A stretch of DNA of 64,000 nucleotides. It comes from Blastocatellia bacterium. GTDB taxonomy: Bacteria > Acidobacteriota > Blastocatellia > Pyrinomonadales > Pyrinomonadaceae. The position numbers and the translations under genes were made by a program. Positions 13,550 through 60,991 of this stretch are shown here, one piece after another (within the stretch, counting starts at the first letter, position 1; the number at the start of each line of letters is the position of its first letter). The notes beneath the pieces were generated by a model that was not told the DNA's origin, ran no database searches, and saw only the letters and a program-made list of their open reading frames with translations. The stretch is taken from contig PMSM01000011.1 of NCBI GenBank assembly GCA_003168335.1, positions 82,590 through 146,589 on the forward strand, given 5' to 3'.

Positions 13550-13550
13550 T

Positions 13551-13637
13551 GAACTTTGTACTTTGAGCTTTGTACTTTGATCTCGATGTCTAGTAGTCGC
13601 TGACCCAAAGGATCAAAGTAGAAAGGACGAAGTACCA
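13551..13637. repeat. AT-rich imperfect hairpin upstream of ispF
   Basis: Left arm GAACTTTGTACTTTGAGC with a second TTTGTACTTTGATC; right arm GATCAAAGTAGAAAGGAC then GAAGTACC, roughly the reverse complement. It fills the ispD-ispF gap and resembles the hairpin before udk at 22583. Confidence 0.7.
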
Positions 13638-13651
13638 GGCACGAGCTTTTT

Positions 13652-22582: not shown

Positions 22583-22690
22583 CTGAACTTTGTGCTTAGT
22601 GCTTCGTACTTGGATCTGTGTTCGAGGTTGCGTGGTCCCGCGGAGCCTGGTAAGAAGTCAAAGCACAAAGCACTAAGGACAAAGTTCACG
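22583..22690. repeat. AT-rich long imperfect hairpin upstream of udk
   Basis: Left arm GAACTTTGTGCTTAGTGCTT; right arm AAGCACTAAGGACAAAGTTC, nearly its reverse complement, with ATCTGTG and GC-rich sequence in the loop. Same style as the hairpin before ispF. Confidence 0.75.
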
Positions 22691-36405: not shown

Positions 36406-37101
36406 TCATTCACCCGGATTGAATCGATAGCCAATCCAGGGTTCGGTCAGAATGTAATGCGGCTTTGAAGGAGTTGGTTCGATCTTCTTGCGCAGTTGTC
36501 CGATGAACACGCGCAGATACTCGGTCTGCTCTGTGTAGTCGCCCCCCCAGACCGCGCCCAACAGCGCGCGGTGCGTGAGAACCTTCCCGGGGTGCTTCGC
36601 GAGATAAACCATCAGGTCGTATTCCTTGGGCGTTAGGTGAATCTCTGTCTCTTTCAGAGTCACCGTGTGTCCTTCGAGGTCGATGCGAAAGTCGCCAATC
36701 TCAACGCTGCCGGCGGCTTCTGCGCCCGCGGCCGGGGCTCTGCGGAGGGTGGCGCGAATGCGTGCCAGCAACTCGTCCATACCAAAAGGCTTGGTAACGT
36801 AATCGTCAGCGCCGGCATCGAGGGCCGCGACTTTTGCGGGCTCGTCACCTTTCACCGAGAGCACGATGATCGGCACGTTTGAATTCGCGCGCACGCGCCG
36901 GCAAAGCTCAAGCCCGCCCATGTTGGGCATCGAAAGGTCCGTGATTACAAGATCCGGCGACCAATCCCTAAGCAGGTCAAGCGCGGCTTCGCCATCCGCC
37001 GTAGTGCGCACATCGTAGCGGTGCATCGTCAGACCGCGACGCAGCACGCGCGTGATCTGCGGCTCGTCATCTACGACCAGAATCTTTTTGTTTTCGCTCA
37101 T
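36406..37101 (-). CDS. kdpE: KdpE-like response regulator
   Basis: A 231-residue OmpR/PhoB-type regulator. Receiver (about 1-120): KILVVDDEPQITRVL, acceptor Asp in PDLVITDLSMPNMGG, Lys in DDYVTKPFGMDEL. Winged-helix DNA-binding domain (about 130-231): IHLTPKEYDLMVYLAKHPGKVLTHRALLG and TEYLRVFIGQLRKKIE, then ILTEPWIGYRF, close to KdpE. ATG 37101 overlaps the upstream kinase stop by 4 bp (ATGA), indicating translational coupling; a longer frame upstream is just overlap with the kinase gene. It should activate kdpFABC when potassium is low. Confidence 0.92.
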   Translation of the reverse strand: MSENKKILVVDDEPQITRVLRRGLTMHRYDVRTTADGEAALDLLRDWSPDLVITDLSMPNMGGLELCRRVRANSNVPIIVLSVKGDEPAKVAALDAGADDYVTKPFGMDELLARIRATLRRAPAAGAEAAGSVEIGDFRIDLEGHTVTLKETEIHLTPKEYDLMVYLAKHPGKVLTHRALLGAVWGGDYTEQTEYLRVFIGQLRKKIEPTPSKPHYILTEPWIGYRFNPGE

Positions 37102-38321
37102 TGATCCGCGTCTGCTTCGCTGTCCGCTCGCGTGTCTTCGTCTCCAATCGGAAGAGTAAATACCACGCACGCGCCGTGGCCGTCGCCGGCGCTCTCGATC
37201 CAAATGCGACCCTCGTGTGCCTCAGTAATGCCACGGGCTATGGCTAGTCCCATGCCGGTTCCGGAGGGCTGATTCGTATTACCGGCTTGCATGGCGCGAA
37301 AGAATTTGTCGAAGACGCGCTCGCGCAAGTCTACTGGAATTCCGGGCCCTTCGTCTTCCACGCTGACGTTCACAGTGCCGTTGTCTCCAGTCGTAGCGGT
37401 TACGCGAATGGCGCTGCCCCGAGGTGAGTACTTCGCGGCGTTCTCAAGCAGCGTGTACAACACCTCGGCTACCGCGCGTTCGTCAACTCGTACGGAAGGT
37501 AACTCGTCGTCAAGCACAATCTCGACCTTATGTTCGCGGGTTCGCGGGGCGGCGCGCGTCAAAGCCGCCGTGACGATCTCCTCAACCGAGCCCCAGTGTT
37601 TACGCAACTGCATCTCGCCTGCCTTGAGCTGCGCCAGTTCCATTAAGTCTTCGATGAAGTGATTGAGGCGATCAGCTTCTTCGTTGATTACGACCAGCAT
37701 TTCCTTGCGGGCATCCGGCTCCAGCCGGATGGGCTCTTCGCTGTCGACCTTCGTTTCGAATTCTTCGAGCAGGGTTGTGACGGAAGCCTTGATCGACGTC
37801 AGCGGTGTGCGCAAGTCGTGAGTCACTGCATCGAGCAAAGCTGACTTGAGTTGTTCACTCTGCTTCAGGGCTTTAGCCTCGCTGGCCCGCTCAAAAGTCT
37901 CTTGCAGCTCGCGGTAAACTCGTTCGATCTCTGCCCGAGCAATCTCAGCTTCTCCGGCGCGTCGCTCTGCGCGAGCGGAAAGGCGGCCGGCGGTCAACGC
38001 CGTGATGATGAAAGCAATAAAAGCGATCCAGTTATCGGGATCGCTGATTCTCAATGTGCCGAACGGCGGCAGAAAAAAGAAATTGAAGGAGATCACACCG
38101 AGCAGCGAAGTGAATACTGCCGGGCGCGAGCCCCATGCAGTGGCCACGAAAAGAACTACCAGGAGGAAAACAAGGGCCGCGGTCGTCGGATTGACGCGCG
38201 CGCCGAACAGCTTTAATAAACCGGTGGCGGCGGCGATGCCGAACAGCCCCGCGCCATAACCGACCAGGCTTCTGCCGAAGAGCTTAGGCGCCACTGGCGG
38301 CCTCGTCCTTAAGTATTCCAT
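37098..38321 (-). CDS. KdpD C-terminal half: DUF4118 membrane domain plus histidine kinase
   Basis: A 407-residue kinase. It begins directly with the four-helix KdpD-type membrane domain (about 18-115, including FTSLLGVISFNFFFLPPFGTL) and has a coiled linker. HisKA follows with phospho-His in DAVTHDLRTPLTSIKAS, and then HATPase_c with LENAAKYSPRG, DEGPGIPVDLRERVFDKF and GTGMGLAIARG. It lacks the KdpD sensor and USP domains, which are encoded separately at 29329-30504. Its stop overlaps the kdpE start. The two proteins together make up one classical KdpD. Confidence 0.92.
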   Translation of the reverse strand: MEYLRTRPPVAPKLFGRSLVGYGAGLFGIAAATGLLKLFGARVNPTTAALVFLLVVLFVATAWGSRPAVFTSLLGVISFNFFFLPPFGTLRISDPDNWIAFIAFIITALTAGRLSARAERRAGEAEIARAEIERVYRELQETFERASEAKALKQSEQLKSALLDAVTHDLRTPLTSIKASVTTLLEEFETKVDSEEPIRLEPDARKEMLVVINEEADRLNHFIEDLMELAQLKAGEMQLRKHWGSVEEIVTAALTRAAPRTREHKVEIVLDDELPSVRVDERAVAEVLYTLLENAAKYSPRGSAIRVTATTGDNGTVNVSVEDEGPGIPVDLRERVFDKFFRAMQAGNTNQPSGTGMGLAIARGITEAHEGRIWIESAGDGHGACVVFTLPIGDEDTRADSEADADQ

Positions 38322-38333
38322 CGTCTTTGGAAG

Positions 38334-38377
38334 TATAGGACGAATCGGTCCGATATGACCTATGGCTTTTCCTATGG
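38334..38377. repeat. ATAGGACC-type repeat, 3' side of four-helix-bundle gene
   Basis: TATAGGACGAATCGGTCCGA followed by TATGACCTATGG and CCTATGG. The same word occurs within the gene (38545-38590, CCGATAGGTCGAATAGGACC) and at its 5' side (38931-38958, ATATAGGACCAATATGTCCC). Confidence 0.6.
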
Positions 38378-38926
38378 TTTTCGTCGTCGTGCCGTCGACC
38401 GCGCCCGGTAAAGCCGTTCGGTGAAGCCGCCTTCCTGAAGAGAAGCTTTTTCAAGCTGACGGAGTTGTTGATCCAGCAGGTAATTGGTTTGGTGAATCAG
38501 GCAGACAATAGTGTTCGCGGCCACCTCGGGTGGGGAAGTTTCAATATAGGGCCGATAGGTCGAATAGGACCTATTTGTTTCATAGGCCAGCCGGCGCACA
38601 ATTTGAGCCGTAGGGTGGTCCTTTCCCCATAATGGCAAACCACGTTGCCGCAGAAAATCCTCGTAATCCAGGAGTAACTCTTCGAGGCTGGCGCGGGCTA
38701 CACCGACTACCTTTAACTCGAATTTCCTGGATGTTCCTGAAGCCTGGCTACCTTCCGCGATGTTCTGTCGTCCGCTGCGCACAGCTTGAACCATCTGGTC
38801 GTGGGTACGAGAACGTCGATCAATAAAACGATCGCAAAACTTCACCGTGGAATCATAGACCAGTTCGGCTTGCTGAAAGGATTTCAGTTCGCGGTAGCCG
38901 CCATGCGGTGAAATGAGTCTCTCCAT
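38372..38926 (-). CDS. Four-helix-bundle protein (S23/IVP-like family)
   Basis: A 184-residue protein of the four-helix-bundle family related to proteins encoded in 23S rRNA intervening sequences and to the diversity-generating-retroelement accessory protein Avd. It has KSFQQAELVYDSTVKFCDRF, then DQMVQAVRSGRQNIAEGSQA (the central helix), ASLEELLLDYEDFLRQ and NTIVCLIHQTNYLLDQQL then LEKASLQEGGF. A Tyr-rich insert, SYSTYRPY, between helices is encoded by an ATAGGACC-type DNA repeat that also flanks the gene. No reverse transcriptase or rRNA is nearby. Function is unknown; nucleic-acid binding is plausible for the family. Confidence 0.82.
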   Translation of the reverse strand: MERLISPHGGYRELKSFQQAELVYDSTVKFCDRFIDRRSRTHDQMVQAVRSGRQNIAEGSQASGTSRKFELKVVGVARASLEELLLDYEDFLRQRGLPLWGKDHPTAQIVRRLAYETNRSYSTYRPYIETSPPEVAANTIVCLIHQTNYLLDQQLRQLEKASLQEGGFTERLYRARSTARRRKP

Positions 38927-38930
38927 AGAG

Positions 38931-38958
38931 ATATAGGACCAATATGTCCCATGGACCT
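38931..38958. repeat. ATAGGACC-type repeat, 5' side of four-helix-bundle gene
   Basis: ATATAGGACCAATATGTCCC then ATGGACC, directly upstream of the start codon. It is an imperfect palindrome (GGACC/GGTCC-like halves) and shares its word with the copies inside and behind the gene. Confidence 0.6.
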
Positions 38959-39073
38959 ACAGCTCACCAGGGCGCCGCGAATGATAACTCAAAACAGCCG
39001 AATGTCGCTCGGCAACGATCTTGCTAAGAATCTCCAGCCCGTCGAAGTCAGATTCATACCGCCTTATCGATAC

Positions 39074-39101: not shown

Positions 39102-39133
39102 CGTTGGCGAATCTTAAGGAAAGCCTAAGCAAA

Positions 39134-39622
39134 GTGAAGATATCAGCTCAAGAAGAGTATGGTCTGCGGTGCCTGGTCCAGTTGGCGCGCGCGGAAGGCG
39201 ACAGCGAGTCGTTGACGCTGGCGCAGATTGCTGAGCGGGAAGGTTTGTCGGTTGCCAATGCCGGCAAGCTGATGTGGATTTTGAGCAAAGCCGGGTTGGT
39301 CAGTGCTCAGCGCGGAACCAAGGGCGGATACTCGCTGGCTCGCCCCGCGTCAGATATTCGTTTGAATGAAGTGATTCGGATTCTCGACGAAGACACTGTG
39401 GACGGCTTCTGCAAAACGCACGCGGGTGTGTTGGATGCTTGTATTCACACGAGCGATTGCGGCGTCCGGGCGGTAATCGTCGGACTGCATGAAGTTGTGC
39501 AAAACGCTTTGTCAGAGATCACACTGGCGCAACTGGTGGGAACCGAAGAGAACGTTGATGCTCGCTTGCATCAAATCGTGAAACGGCAAAGCCATCTCAG
39601 GCCAATGAGCTCGGCAAACTGA
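39134..39622 (+). CDS. Rrf2-family Fe-S-sensing regulator of the suf operon
   Basis: A 162-residue Rrf2/IscR/SufR-type repressor. It starts VKISAQEEYGLRCLVQLA (winged helix, about 1-80, with LTLAQIAEREGLS and GTKGGYSLARP). Cys residues in DGFCKTHAGVLDACIHTSDCG form an IscR-like three-Cys cluster-binding loop. The GTG at 39134 is preferred: it fits the usual N-terminus and lies downstream of the expected transcription start, whereas the longer frame (TTG 39104) does not. It leads the suf genes and should repress them when Fe-S clusters are sufficient. Confidence 0.9.
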   Translation: MKISAQEEYGLRCLVQLARAEGDSESLTLAQIAEREGLSVANAGKLMWILSKAGLVSAQRGTKGGYSLARPASDIRLNEVIRILDEDTVDGFCKTHAGVLDACIHTSDCGVRAVIVGLHEVVQNALSEITLAQLVGTEENVDARLHQIVKRQSHLRPMSSAN

Positions 39623-41160: not shown

Positions 41161-41216
41161 AGTCTGAGATCTGAGATTTCAGATTTGAAATTTGAGATTT
41201 GAAATTCGAAAGAGGA
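41161..41216. repeat. AT-rich word repeat upstream of sufC
   Basis: Repeated GAGATTTCAGATTTGAAATT-type words (GATCTGAGATTTCAGATTTG then AAATTTGAGATTTGAAATTC). Self-complementary (TTTGAAATT / AATTTCAAA). Similar words occur at about 60957-60990 before the NCS1 permease stop. Confidence 0.65.
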
Positions 41217-44117: not shown

Positions 44118-45383
44118 ATGGCAACGTTAGAGCAATTGATTCCCATCAAGCCCAGGCCCAGCGAAGACTGGGACGTGGAGCGAATTCGCAAAGACTTTCC
44201 CGTGTTGCGCCAGACGGTGAATGGAAAGCCTTTGGTCTATCTTGATAACGCCGCTTCCTCGCAGGTGCCCACGATGGTGATCGAGCGTGGCGCCCAGTAC
44301 ATCGAGCAGGAACATTCAAACATCCATCGTGGCGTCCATTACCTCAGCATGAAAGCCACGACGTCCTACGAAGGCGCGCGGGAAAAGGTAAAGCGGTTCA
44401 TTAATGCGCGCGAGTCGAAGGAGTGCATCTTTGTGCGCGGCGCTACCGAAGGCATCAATCTCGTCATGTACGGTTATGGCCGTAAATTCATCGGCGCGGG
44501 AGATGAGATCATCATCTCAGCGATGGAGCATCACGCGAACATTGTCCCCTGGCAGATGCTCTGTGAAGAGAAGAACGCAAAACTTCGCGTCATTCCAATG
44601 AACGACGCCGGCGAACTCTTAATGGACGAGTATGACTCGCTCTTGAATGAGAGAACGAAGTTGGTGGCTGTCGCGCACGTCTCGAACGCGCTGGGCACGA
44701 TCAATCCGGTCAAAGAGATTATTGAGCGCGCACATAAGTACGGCGTGCCGGTCCTAATCGATGGCGCGCAATGGGCGCCGCACATGCGGATTGACGTTCA
44801 GGATCTCGACTGCGACTTTTACGCGTTCTCGGGTCACAAGATGTTTGCCCCGACGGGCAGCGGAGTGGTCTATGGCAAAGCGGCACTGCTCGAAAAGATG
44901 AATCCTTTCATGGGTGGCGGCGACATGATTAAGAGCGTCACTTTCGAGAAAACGATTTACGCCGATCTGCCGAATAAGTTTGAAGCCGGCACGCCGGCGA
45001 TTGCGTCACAAATCGGGCTGGGCGCCGCTATTGATTACCTGACCATTATCGGCCGCGAAAAGGCAGCCGCCTACGAACACGAGTTGCTCCATTACGCCAC
45101 TGAGCGCATCTCGGCGATCGAAGGCGTGCGCATCATCGGCACCGCGCGCGAGAAGCTGAGTGTACTTTCTTTCGTGATTGATGATATTCACCCTCACGAC
45201 ATCGGCACGATTCTGGATCAGGAAGGCATCGCCATACGCGCCGGACATCACTGTGCCCAGCCGGTGATGAAACGATTCAACGTTCCGGCCACCGCGCGCG
45301 CCTCGTTTGCTTTTTATAACACCAGGGAAGAAGTTGACGTCTTAGCGCGAACCGTGGAGCGGGTTATCGAAATCTTTGGTTGA
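44118..45383 (+). CDS. sufS: Cysteine desulfurase SufS
   Basis: A 421-residue PLP enzyme that takes sulfur from cysteine and passes it to SufU. Family motifs: YLDNAASSQVP, HRGVHYLSMKAT, FVRGATEGINLV, the PLP Lys in AFSGHKMFAPTGSGVVYG, and the active Cys in AIRAGHHCAQPVMKRF. The N-terminus is about 15 residues longer than many SufS proteins. Type II desulfurase features match a SufU partner, which follows. Confidence 0.96.
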   Translation: MATLEQLIPIKPRPSEDWDVERIRKDFPVLRQTVNGKPLVYLDNAASSQVPTMVIERGAQYIEQEHSNIHRGVHYLSMKATTSYEGAREKVKRFINARESKECIFVRGATEGINLVMYGYGRKFIGAGDEIIISAMEHHANIVPWQMLCEEKNAKLRVIPMNDAGELLMDEYDSLLNERTKLVAVAHVSNALGTINPVKEIIERAHKYGVPVLIDGAQWAPHMRIDVQDLDCDFYAFSGHKMFAPTGSGVVYGKAALLEKMNPFMGGGDMIKSVTFEKTIYADLPNKFEAGTPAIASQIGLGAAIDYLTIIGREKAAAYEHELLHYATERISAIEGVRIIGTAREKLSVLSFVIDDIHPHDIGTILDQEGIAIRAGHHCAQPVMKRFNVPATARASFAFYNTREEVDVLARTVERVIEIFG

Positions 45384-45463
45384 TTGCCGATTTCCCATTG
45401 CCAATTGCCGATTTAGTGTCGACAAGGATCAAATTGGCAATCGGAAATTGGAAATTGGAAATG
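45384..45463. repeat. AT-rich word hairpin upstream of sufU
   Basis: GATTGCCGATTTCCCATTGC with CAATTGCCGATTT on the left; AAATTGGCAATCGGAAATTG with GAAATTGGAAATGG on the right, roughly inverted. It fills the sufS-sufU gap. Confidence 0.7.
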
Positions 45464-45467
45464 GAAC

Positions 45468-60946: not shown

Positions 60947-60991
60947 ATAAACTCCAGAGTTTCAGGTTTCAAATTTCAGATTTCAATCTCG

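Follow-up and report, generated by a model that had tools for sequence, protein, structure and literature searches.

In REPIN-RAYT (REP-TnpAREP) systems, as described in the portions of the literature used here, a gene lies in palindromic repeats of which gene-free copies are dispersed (PMC3116915, PMC2817692, PMC8266576). Until now, the S23/IVP family has chiefly been noted as a curiosity of rRNA intervening sequences (IVSs). According to those sections of one report that are drawn on here (PMC4990558), the IVS of Coxiella rRNA carries an S23 open reading frame (ORF) preceded by tandem GACAGAT heptamers, its RNA is cut out by RNase III, rRNA IVSs are located in rRNA helix 45, mobility of the rRNA IVS has been proposed (citing Ralph and McClelland 1993), and the solved S23 protein of Xanthomonas campestris, Xcc0516, is a homopentamer of toroidal shape. 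The family profile PF05635 is said, in the relevant part of another paper, to resemble Avd (PMC10053308).

Heptameric arrays, again as covered by excerpts of the sources, have been described in Xanthomonas (GGGAATC) and Nostoc (GGGGA(C/T)T); in two Xanthomonas genomes the GGGAATC arrays form 70 and 75 inverted pairs, and, in general, heptamer arrays showed no association with mobile elements (PMC4692102); TAACTGA arrays are on record from Beggiatoaceae and cyanobacteria (PMC4679880). In open-licence PubMed Central text, we found no publication that connects S23 or four-helix genes to arrays of short tandem repeats. The gene considered here lies in a stretch of 64,000 nucleotides from a Blastocatellia bacterium of the phylum Acidobacteriota (the window), between two protein genes, and carries related short repeats behind it, inside it and before its start.

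The window gene and its repeats

The features of the locus are as follows.

38372..38926, minus strand: four-helix-bundle gene with a suffix domain, 184 aa (ORF list; TIGR02436, TIGR04258 and PF05635 profiles; AlphaFold2)
38672..38881, minus strand: residues 16-85, helices 1-3, the TIGR02436 match (NCBIfam and AlphaFold2)
38384..38530, minus strand: residues 133-181, suffix domain TIGR04258, that is, the long fourth helix and a C-terminal helix (NCBIfam and AlphaFold2)
38334..38363, no strand assigned: array behind the gene (read directly; repeat search; word clustering)
38545..38574, no strand assigned: 9-nt array within the gene, between helices 3 and 4, where it encodes in frame part of RSYSTYRPY (read directly; repeat search; word clustering)
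38932..38961, no strand assigned: array before the gene start (read directly; repeat search; word clustering)
38311..39066, no strand assigned: segment flanked by the KdpD-like and Rrf2 genes and containing the gene and its arrays, with no counterpart of the gene in three same-genus genomes; borders approximate (comparison with G396, G399 and G397)

The encoded protein, which contains the stretch NRSYSTYRPYIE, matches two NCBIfam profiles, TIGR02436 with 28.3 bits (cut-off 24, residues 16-85) and, over its full length (1-49), the four helix bundle suffix profile TIGR04258 with 75.8 bits (cut-off 40, residues 133-181); its score against PF05635 of Pfam, 27.2 bits, is below the cut-off of 33.8. 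The AlphaFold2 model, built with 37 sequences (mean pLDDT 92.4), has helices at residues 15-34, 40-62, 67-94, 133-165 and 168-182, and two short ones at 105-115 and 121-129 in the connection between helices 3 and 4, the part of the protein in which the repeat is translated. Among solved structures, the model comes closest to two S23 proteins, 2gsc at Z 15.9 (rmsd 1.9, 114 residues) and 2rld at Z 13.5; this resemblance, together with the TIGR02436 score above cut-off, bears out the S23/IVP-type four-helix bundle recognized in an earlier sequence-only reading of this DNA. Next come the diversity-generating retroelement RNP chains 8ub8_C (Z 12.2, rmsd 2.3, 109 residues) and 8ub7_B (Z 11.9), in a range where a Z below ~13 may stand for a common helical-bundle arrangement, with many unrelated helical bundles below Z 12. 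The relation to Avd claimed in the same reading thus holds as a resemblance of fold, but a less sure one than that to S23 proteins, and the Avd-like fold, judged from the Z of a helical bundle, is suggestive only. No transposase match was found in the protein with Pfam and NCBIfam, where four-helix-bundle families alone reached E 0.001, nor did these profiles reveal a catalytic domain.

The words reported earlier behind, inside and before the gene are indeed present in the three arrays. The exact word ATAGGACC occurs twice in the window, a count that 20 of 100 shuffles equal or exceed and that is thus unremarkable, and TATAGGACC, with at most one mismatch, occurs nine times compared to 3.9 expected (2 of 100 shuffles reach nine), with five of these nine sites within the 600-bp gene stretch. 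With one mismatch allowed, 14 of the 46 ATAGGWCC sites of the window fall in 38320-38965 (645 bp), where 0.33 would be expected from the rest of the window; at the same stringency the densest other 645 bp of the window contains four sites, and when 800 kb of a second contig from this genome were examined, the densest 645 bp had six. The 14 sites are grouped as five behind, four inside and four before the gene, plus one at 38617. This clustering at the window gene is decisive, and it required one-mismatch sites, as exact word counts alone would have missed it; a view based on words only was dropped, given that the exact ATAGGACC count is not significant and that the flanks of most relatives lack the word. 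A repeat search united the three arrays as one 30-nt family. Because the ATAGGWCC clustering is decisive and the 30-nt copies are 60-77% identical to the reference copy, the window array is real but degenerate. Degenerate 9-nt arrays are present on both sides of the gene, and the inverted repeat found here consists of the rear array and the linker array, which are 79% complementary, the unit being nearly palindromic and degenerate. The window copy is a degenerate, low-copy member, which may be inactive.

The gene is flanked by a KdpD-like histidine kinase gene (37098-38321, minus strand) and an Rrf2-type regulator gene (39104-39622, plus strand), the latter followed, by reading of the ORF list, by a SufB-like gene; according to these neighbours it does not sit inside a 23S rRNA gene, and no reverse transcriptase was noted on reading through the list of ORFs at 33-44 kb of the window. 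Both neighbours are kept in the same-genus genomes G396, G399 and G397, and the window gene is absent there in all three: G396 (L144) has merely a short spacer between the histidine kinase and Rrf2 genes, and G399 (L145) and G397 (L146) have a different insert of ~1 kb, partly alike in both, so that the spacer may be a repeated landing site. Although the absence of the gene from relatives was observed, no target-site duplication was resolved at the window spacer. Protein identity to the window gene is 62-85% in the best 80 of 548 relatives, which come from many phyla, and of 396 genomes from the phylum of the window, 19 have a match to the suffix profile TIGR04258. Sequence comparison thus indicates an accessory gene, its absence from same-genus genomes, its high identity across phyla and its few carriers in the phylum together forming the pattern of a gene that probably moves laterally. 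In one close homologue (L104), the reading frame is broken by extra DNA near helix 1-2.

Arrays at plain S23 and suffix-type genes

The main result, which goes beyond the sequence-only reading, is that plain S23/IVP genes are bracketed by inverted arrays, mostly of 7-8 nt, whose unit is specific to the gene. For example, (ACAGACC)n at L178, (TCAGTAG)n at L200 and (GATCAGG)n at L175 face, on the opposite side of the gene, their reverse complements (GGTCTGT)n, (CTACTGA)n and (CCTGATC)n, respectively. An early set of plain S23 genes came from genomes picked mostly for arrays and was excluded from the rates. The rates refer to 70 plain loci from among the matches listed, namely 30 loci (one of them L001) and 40 added in list order, skipping loci already taken or near contig ends; among the matches listed, plain S23 genes were found in 36 of 70 sampled phylum genomes. 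The best flank period of the 70 genes was 7 in 44, 8 in 16, 9 in 4 and none in 6, compared to 1777 without a period, 44 with 7, 9 with 8 and 41 with 9 among 2000 random positions in the window's genome (L455 was left out of this comparison). At least two 9-mers were shared between the upstream and the reverse-complemented downstream flank in 54 of the 70 genes. The same held for 257 of 4830 mismatched flank pairs (5.3%) and for 11 of the 70 control pairs taken from distal flanks; when the flanks were compared on the same strand, 16 of the 70 genes shared them. We used 9-mers and mismatched-pair controls, as 7-mer sharing exceeded permutations in the flanks yet also in distal flanks, which reflects composition. 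Periodicity inside the plain genes was not raised: the arrays are in the flanks.

In 800 kb of the window's genome, 560 ORFs of 99-219 aa were screened, regardless of family, for arrays on both sides and inverted sharing. Two ORFs were returned, and both are S23 genes; the third S23 gene of the screened 800 kb (L004) was not returned. The background among the 560 ORFs was 10% for a flank array and 7% for inverted sharing. In other phyla, 22 of 28 plain genes (the best match per genome, in genomes picked as suffix-gene carriers) had a flank array and 14 of 28 inverted sharing, compared to 3 of 28 distal controls. Ten S23 genes from plasmids (nine cyanobacterial; ten of 22 plasmid records were examined) had an array in at least one flank in eight cases and inverted sharing in seven. 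At four of these ten plasmid loci (L449, L450, L451 and L453, all cyanobacterial), the next annotated gene encodes a tyrosine recombinase or integrase.

The suffix-type genes, to which the window gene belongs, have a 9-nt unit. In 80 close homologues, exact words amount to 15.5 per kb in the linker, 0.65 in the 250 bp downstream and ~1.5 in the 250 bp upstream (a density for which the upstream length is overestimated because at least one locus is truncated at its 5' end), and to 0.04 beyond 500 bp, so that words are enriched in both the flanks and the linker. A lack of enrichment, which would have refuted the sequence-only reading, was thus not observed. The exact word occurs in the flanks of 17 and in the linker of 35 of the 80. 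The ATAGGWCC word is not family-wide and the sequence of the 9-nt repeat differs between suffix-type lineages, as locus reading revealed the following units.

L011: GATAGGACG-like
L006 and L016: ATGGGAC-like
L017: AAAGGACAT-like
L029: AAGGACCTC-like
L020, L023, L026 and L031: GTGGAC-like
L019, L021 and L030: CACGGAC-like
L013, L015 and L024: GATC-GAC-like
L027 and L028: GTC-GAC-like

Thus, of the proposal that the repeat is specific to this gene family, the tie to the family stands and a role in recognition is plausible, but the single shared word does not hold, other genes having other units. Variation of repeat number at the insert, likewise anticipated by the sequence-only reading, is not seen in the 80 closest relatives (a set biased to full-length matches), where the linker measures 42 nt in 74, 39 in four and 36 in two, but linkers of 69-180 nt occur at 10 of 24 measured phylum loci. 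The expansion into Tyr-Lys/Arg runs mentioned in that reading was found in none of the homologue linkers read. The linker of L020 contains both arms of an inverted array, in frame.

Across 107 suffix-type loci, 5-mer pairs at lag 9 number 11.9 per kb upstream, 11.5 downstream and 37.2 in the linker, compared to 3.1-3.4 both in distal flanks and in the remainder of the gene, lag 18 being the sole other lag raised comparably. The signal is uneven by locus: of the 107 loci, 32 have two or more pairs in the upstream flank and 25 in the downstream flank, versus 11 and 12 in the distal ones; a flank period was callable at 36 of the 107 loci and was 9 nt at 24 of these. Many suffix-type relatives, chiefly from Nitrospirota and Desulfobacterota, have periodic words in the linker alone. 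Where both could be called, the flank class equals the linker class in 31 of 35 suffix genes (permutation mean 26.6; 5 of 10000 permutations as high).

On a tree of 106 plain proteins (without L439), of which 93 have a period of 7, 8 or 9, the period changes 16 times, compared to a shuffled mean of 28.6 (0 of 200 as low). The unit class of suffix genes shows 9 changes versus 16.9 when linker words are counted and three doubtful rows (L018, L023 and L028) are included; these three, with guessed parts and long branches, were left out of the tree based on flank words alone, on which the class is weakly clustered (11 changes versus 12.7, 5 of 200 as low). Judged from these trees, the repeat period appears to be inherited with the protein, and for the unit sequence, the flanks alone say little. 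Such clustering would also be expected if the cassette merely travels as one block.

Gene-free arrays and their dispersal

A pattern of four GGACN5 units also catches coding repeats, and a palindromic pattern, two GGACN5 units facing two reversed ones, was therefore added; one hairpin can yield several matches to it, and the 90 of 396 genomes with at least one match include GC-rich ones in which single matches resemble coding DNA. Three suffix carriers stand out, with 287 (G242), 108 (G286) and 105 (G042) palindromic matches versus 32, 1 and 0 for the reversed pattern. The palindromic pattern is absent from 10 of the 19 suffix carriers among the phylum genomes, and is found without a suffix hit in G029 (19 matches), G088 (10), G353 (8) and G067 (6), where the palindromes could be relics or unrelated. 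In three genomes, the dispersed arrays have the same type of unit as the gene locus: ATGGGAC in G042, TAGGAC in G286 and GGACATAAA in G051. In stretches chosen for holding arrays or the gene, 272 kb of G042 contained 12 array clusters, 7 of them two-armed, and 110 kb of G286 contained 6, of which 4 were two-armed. Three hairpins folded as DNA gave z of -10.8 to -14.0, and one hairpin of G042 aligns over at least 80 nt at 33 other places in that genome. In places, the hairpins stand at gene ends. One hairpin of G286, which is missing from the corresponding position in the related genome G453, provides the preceding gene with its stop codon; the site is not a clean empty site because synteny breaks there, and no target-site duplication was resolved at it. 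A second palindromic repeat of G286 (L281, ~2465-2545), ~75 nt long and with dozens of copies in the genome, is unlike the nonamer hairpins and was set aside as GC-rich and of different sequence. Not every 9-nt array belongs to S23 genes, because G008 has 39 GGAC 9-nt arrays (17 and 22 on the two strands) and no PF05635 or TIGR04258 match.

Pairs of the ATAGGWCC word (ATAGGWCCNATAGGWCC) matched in 16 of 41 host genomes, in some of which (e.g. G420 and G427) the matches include the gene locus itself, and the reversed pattern matched once across all 41; the 16 are among the 29 hosts chosen for locus words or, in the case of the window's own genome and G259, apart from them, versus 0 of the 12 chosen for lacking such words. 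The pairs occur in 6 of 199 phylum genomes, with 268 matches in G042, the two strands being summed; in both the 41 hosts and the 199 phylum genomes, a single array can be counted twice, once per strand, because the pattern is nearly palindromic.

In the window's genome, further ATAGGWCC arrays lie at C7:564971, C8:276345, C14:472072-472104 and C14:473476-473493, and a gene-free hairpin with the unit of the S23 gene L002 lies at C14:751091-751204. Words of the L003 unit occur 73 times elsewhere in their own genome versus 7 in a shuffle, and 12-mers of the L004 unit are hardly commoner than in a shuffle (13 versus 6). In 800 kb of the window's genome, there are eight inverted array pairs of period 7, and the other periods between 5 and 11 have none or one each. 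The window itself contains, at 45382-45466, a gene-free hairpin of inverted heptamer arrays (GATTGCC-type, a 17-nt loop, AAATTGG-type) like the brackets of plain S23 genes. Further heptamer arrays of the window are of the TGAGATT (41165-41211), ACTTTGT (13550-13640, with a partial inverted arm) and TTTCAGA (60960-60986) types, and 22592-22604 was flagged in the search for inverted array pairs.

Explanations and comparison with known systems

The explanation we favour, to which we give an even chance of being right, is that the gene and its arrays are one system that works like REPIN-RAYT without the transposase, the protein recognising its own repeat and helping it to be copied or moved. From the bracketing of the genes, their gene-specific units, the inversion and, in some carrier genomes, the dispersal of the unit, all of which were observed, we infer recognition and mobilisation, as well as the moving enzyme and the form of the nucleic acid. 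The S23/IVP-type gene and the short-tandem-repeat arrays that bracket it would form one unit; in better preserved relatives, the inverted brackets would place the gene in the loop of a long potential hairpin, and gene-free hairpins with a gene's own unit would be non-autonomous copies. Like its solved relative, the protein probably forms an oligomeric ring. It would recognise its own repeat in DNA or RNA that is single-stranded or folded into a hairpin, and would assist in copying or moving the unit. An enzyme of the host, or one acting in trans, would take part as well, which is proposed because no catalytic domain was found in the protein. That a ring might read its tandem repeat is suggested by the heptamers of the S23-bearing Coxiella IVS, the toroidal Xanthomonas protein and the inverted Xanthomonas arrays, as presented in the parts of the sources used. 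The suffix type of the window has a unit of 9 nt, which keeps the reading frame and can thus also sit in the helix 3-4 linker. Evidence against the favoured reading includes the ten suffix carriers without palindromic matches, the matches in genomes that lack a suffix gene, the G008 arrays, the relatives with periodic words in the linker alone, the few suffix loci with a callable flank period, the weak clustering of unit class by flank words, the L004 unit and the reported general lack of association between heptamer arrays and mobile elements.

The rRNA IVSs may be a special case of such a gene-plus-repeat system. More tentatively, and in our judgement with the chances against it, the S23/IVP family could be the protein of a large transposase-less class of mobile hairpins that includes the gene-free 7-9-nt arrays, in which a ring reads its own repeat with a period set by the protein lineage, rRNA IVSs are those copies that inserted into rRNA, and Avd is a relative that became domesticated. 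The proposal brings together a protein family that is common in bacteria yet has no known function and short tandem arrays of unexplained origin, both of them orphans so far. If true, it provides a directly testable substrate for the S23 family, namely each gene's own repeat, and an origin for heptamer arrays; it also turns the old guess that the IVS reading frame is a mobility component into a general rule, and bears on how Avd arose.

The hairpin arrays might instead be older and host-resident, spread by something else, with S23-type genes homing into their loops as IVSs do in rRNA helices. Genomes with arrays but without a suffix gene, the position of the gene inside inverted arrays and the location of rRNA IVSs in helix 45 (in the sections used of PMC4990558) all agree with such homing, but we consider it unlikely, as each S23 gene has its own unit even within one genome, the repeat period is clustered on the protein tree and ATAGGWCC pairs are rare in the phylum. 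Alternatively, the inverted arrays might act at the RNA level, as a stem around the gene's mRNA that is autoregulated or cut by an RNase, and the gene-free copies might be ordinary terminators or mRNA ends spread by recombination. The strong folding of the three examples, the hairpins at gene ends and, in the same partial source, the cutting of IVS RNA by RNase III speak for this, but we regard it as quite improbable, as a stem needs no tandem short units, the unit varies from gene to gene, and the linker arrays inside suffix-type genes would be left unexplained. Conservation of the linker peptide RSYxTYxxY alone for protein reasons, with codons that resemble the repeat and flanking words due to chance, would fit the many Nitrospirota and Desulfobacterota relatives with linker-only words, but is exceedingly improbable and already contradicted by the flank statistics, flank periodicity in suffix loci being more than three times the control, 9 of the 14 window sites lying outside the linker group and its stray neighbour, and plain S23 genes having flank arrays with no raised periodicity within the gene.

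The favoured reading, a protein gene and its arrays forming one repeat system, can be set against four known systems. With the heptamer arrays, as far as the published main texts go, it shares dispersed 7-nt tandem arrays and, in Xanthomonas, their inverted pairs; in contrast, the main texts of PMC4692102 and PMC4679880 contain none of the terms 'four helix', 'S23' and '23S rRNA' and propose no gene partner. Avd of diversity-generating retroelements has a fold similar to the window-protein model (8ub8_C). With the 23S rRNA IVS, as portrayed in the sections used, the locus shares the protein family, an ORF within a stem-forming element and, in Coxiella, the tandem heptamers before the ORF, whereas the window copy lies between protein genes, has a suffix domain and a 9-nt unit, and belongs to a type whose unit is dispersed in the genome. 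REPIN-RAYT differs in its protein, that of the window being a four-helix bundle with no match to the tyrosine (HUH) transposase in Pfam and NCBIfam, and the palindromes here are built of 7-9-nt tandem units. The likeness, to the extent that REPIN-RAYT is covered by the literature portions used, lies in S23 genes standing in repeat brackets with gene-free palindromic copies in some carriers, in some genomes of both systems holding the repeats but not the gene, and in the gene-related dispersed palindromes of G042, G286 and G051, with few arrays in the window's own genome.
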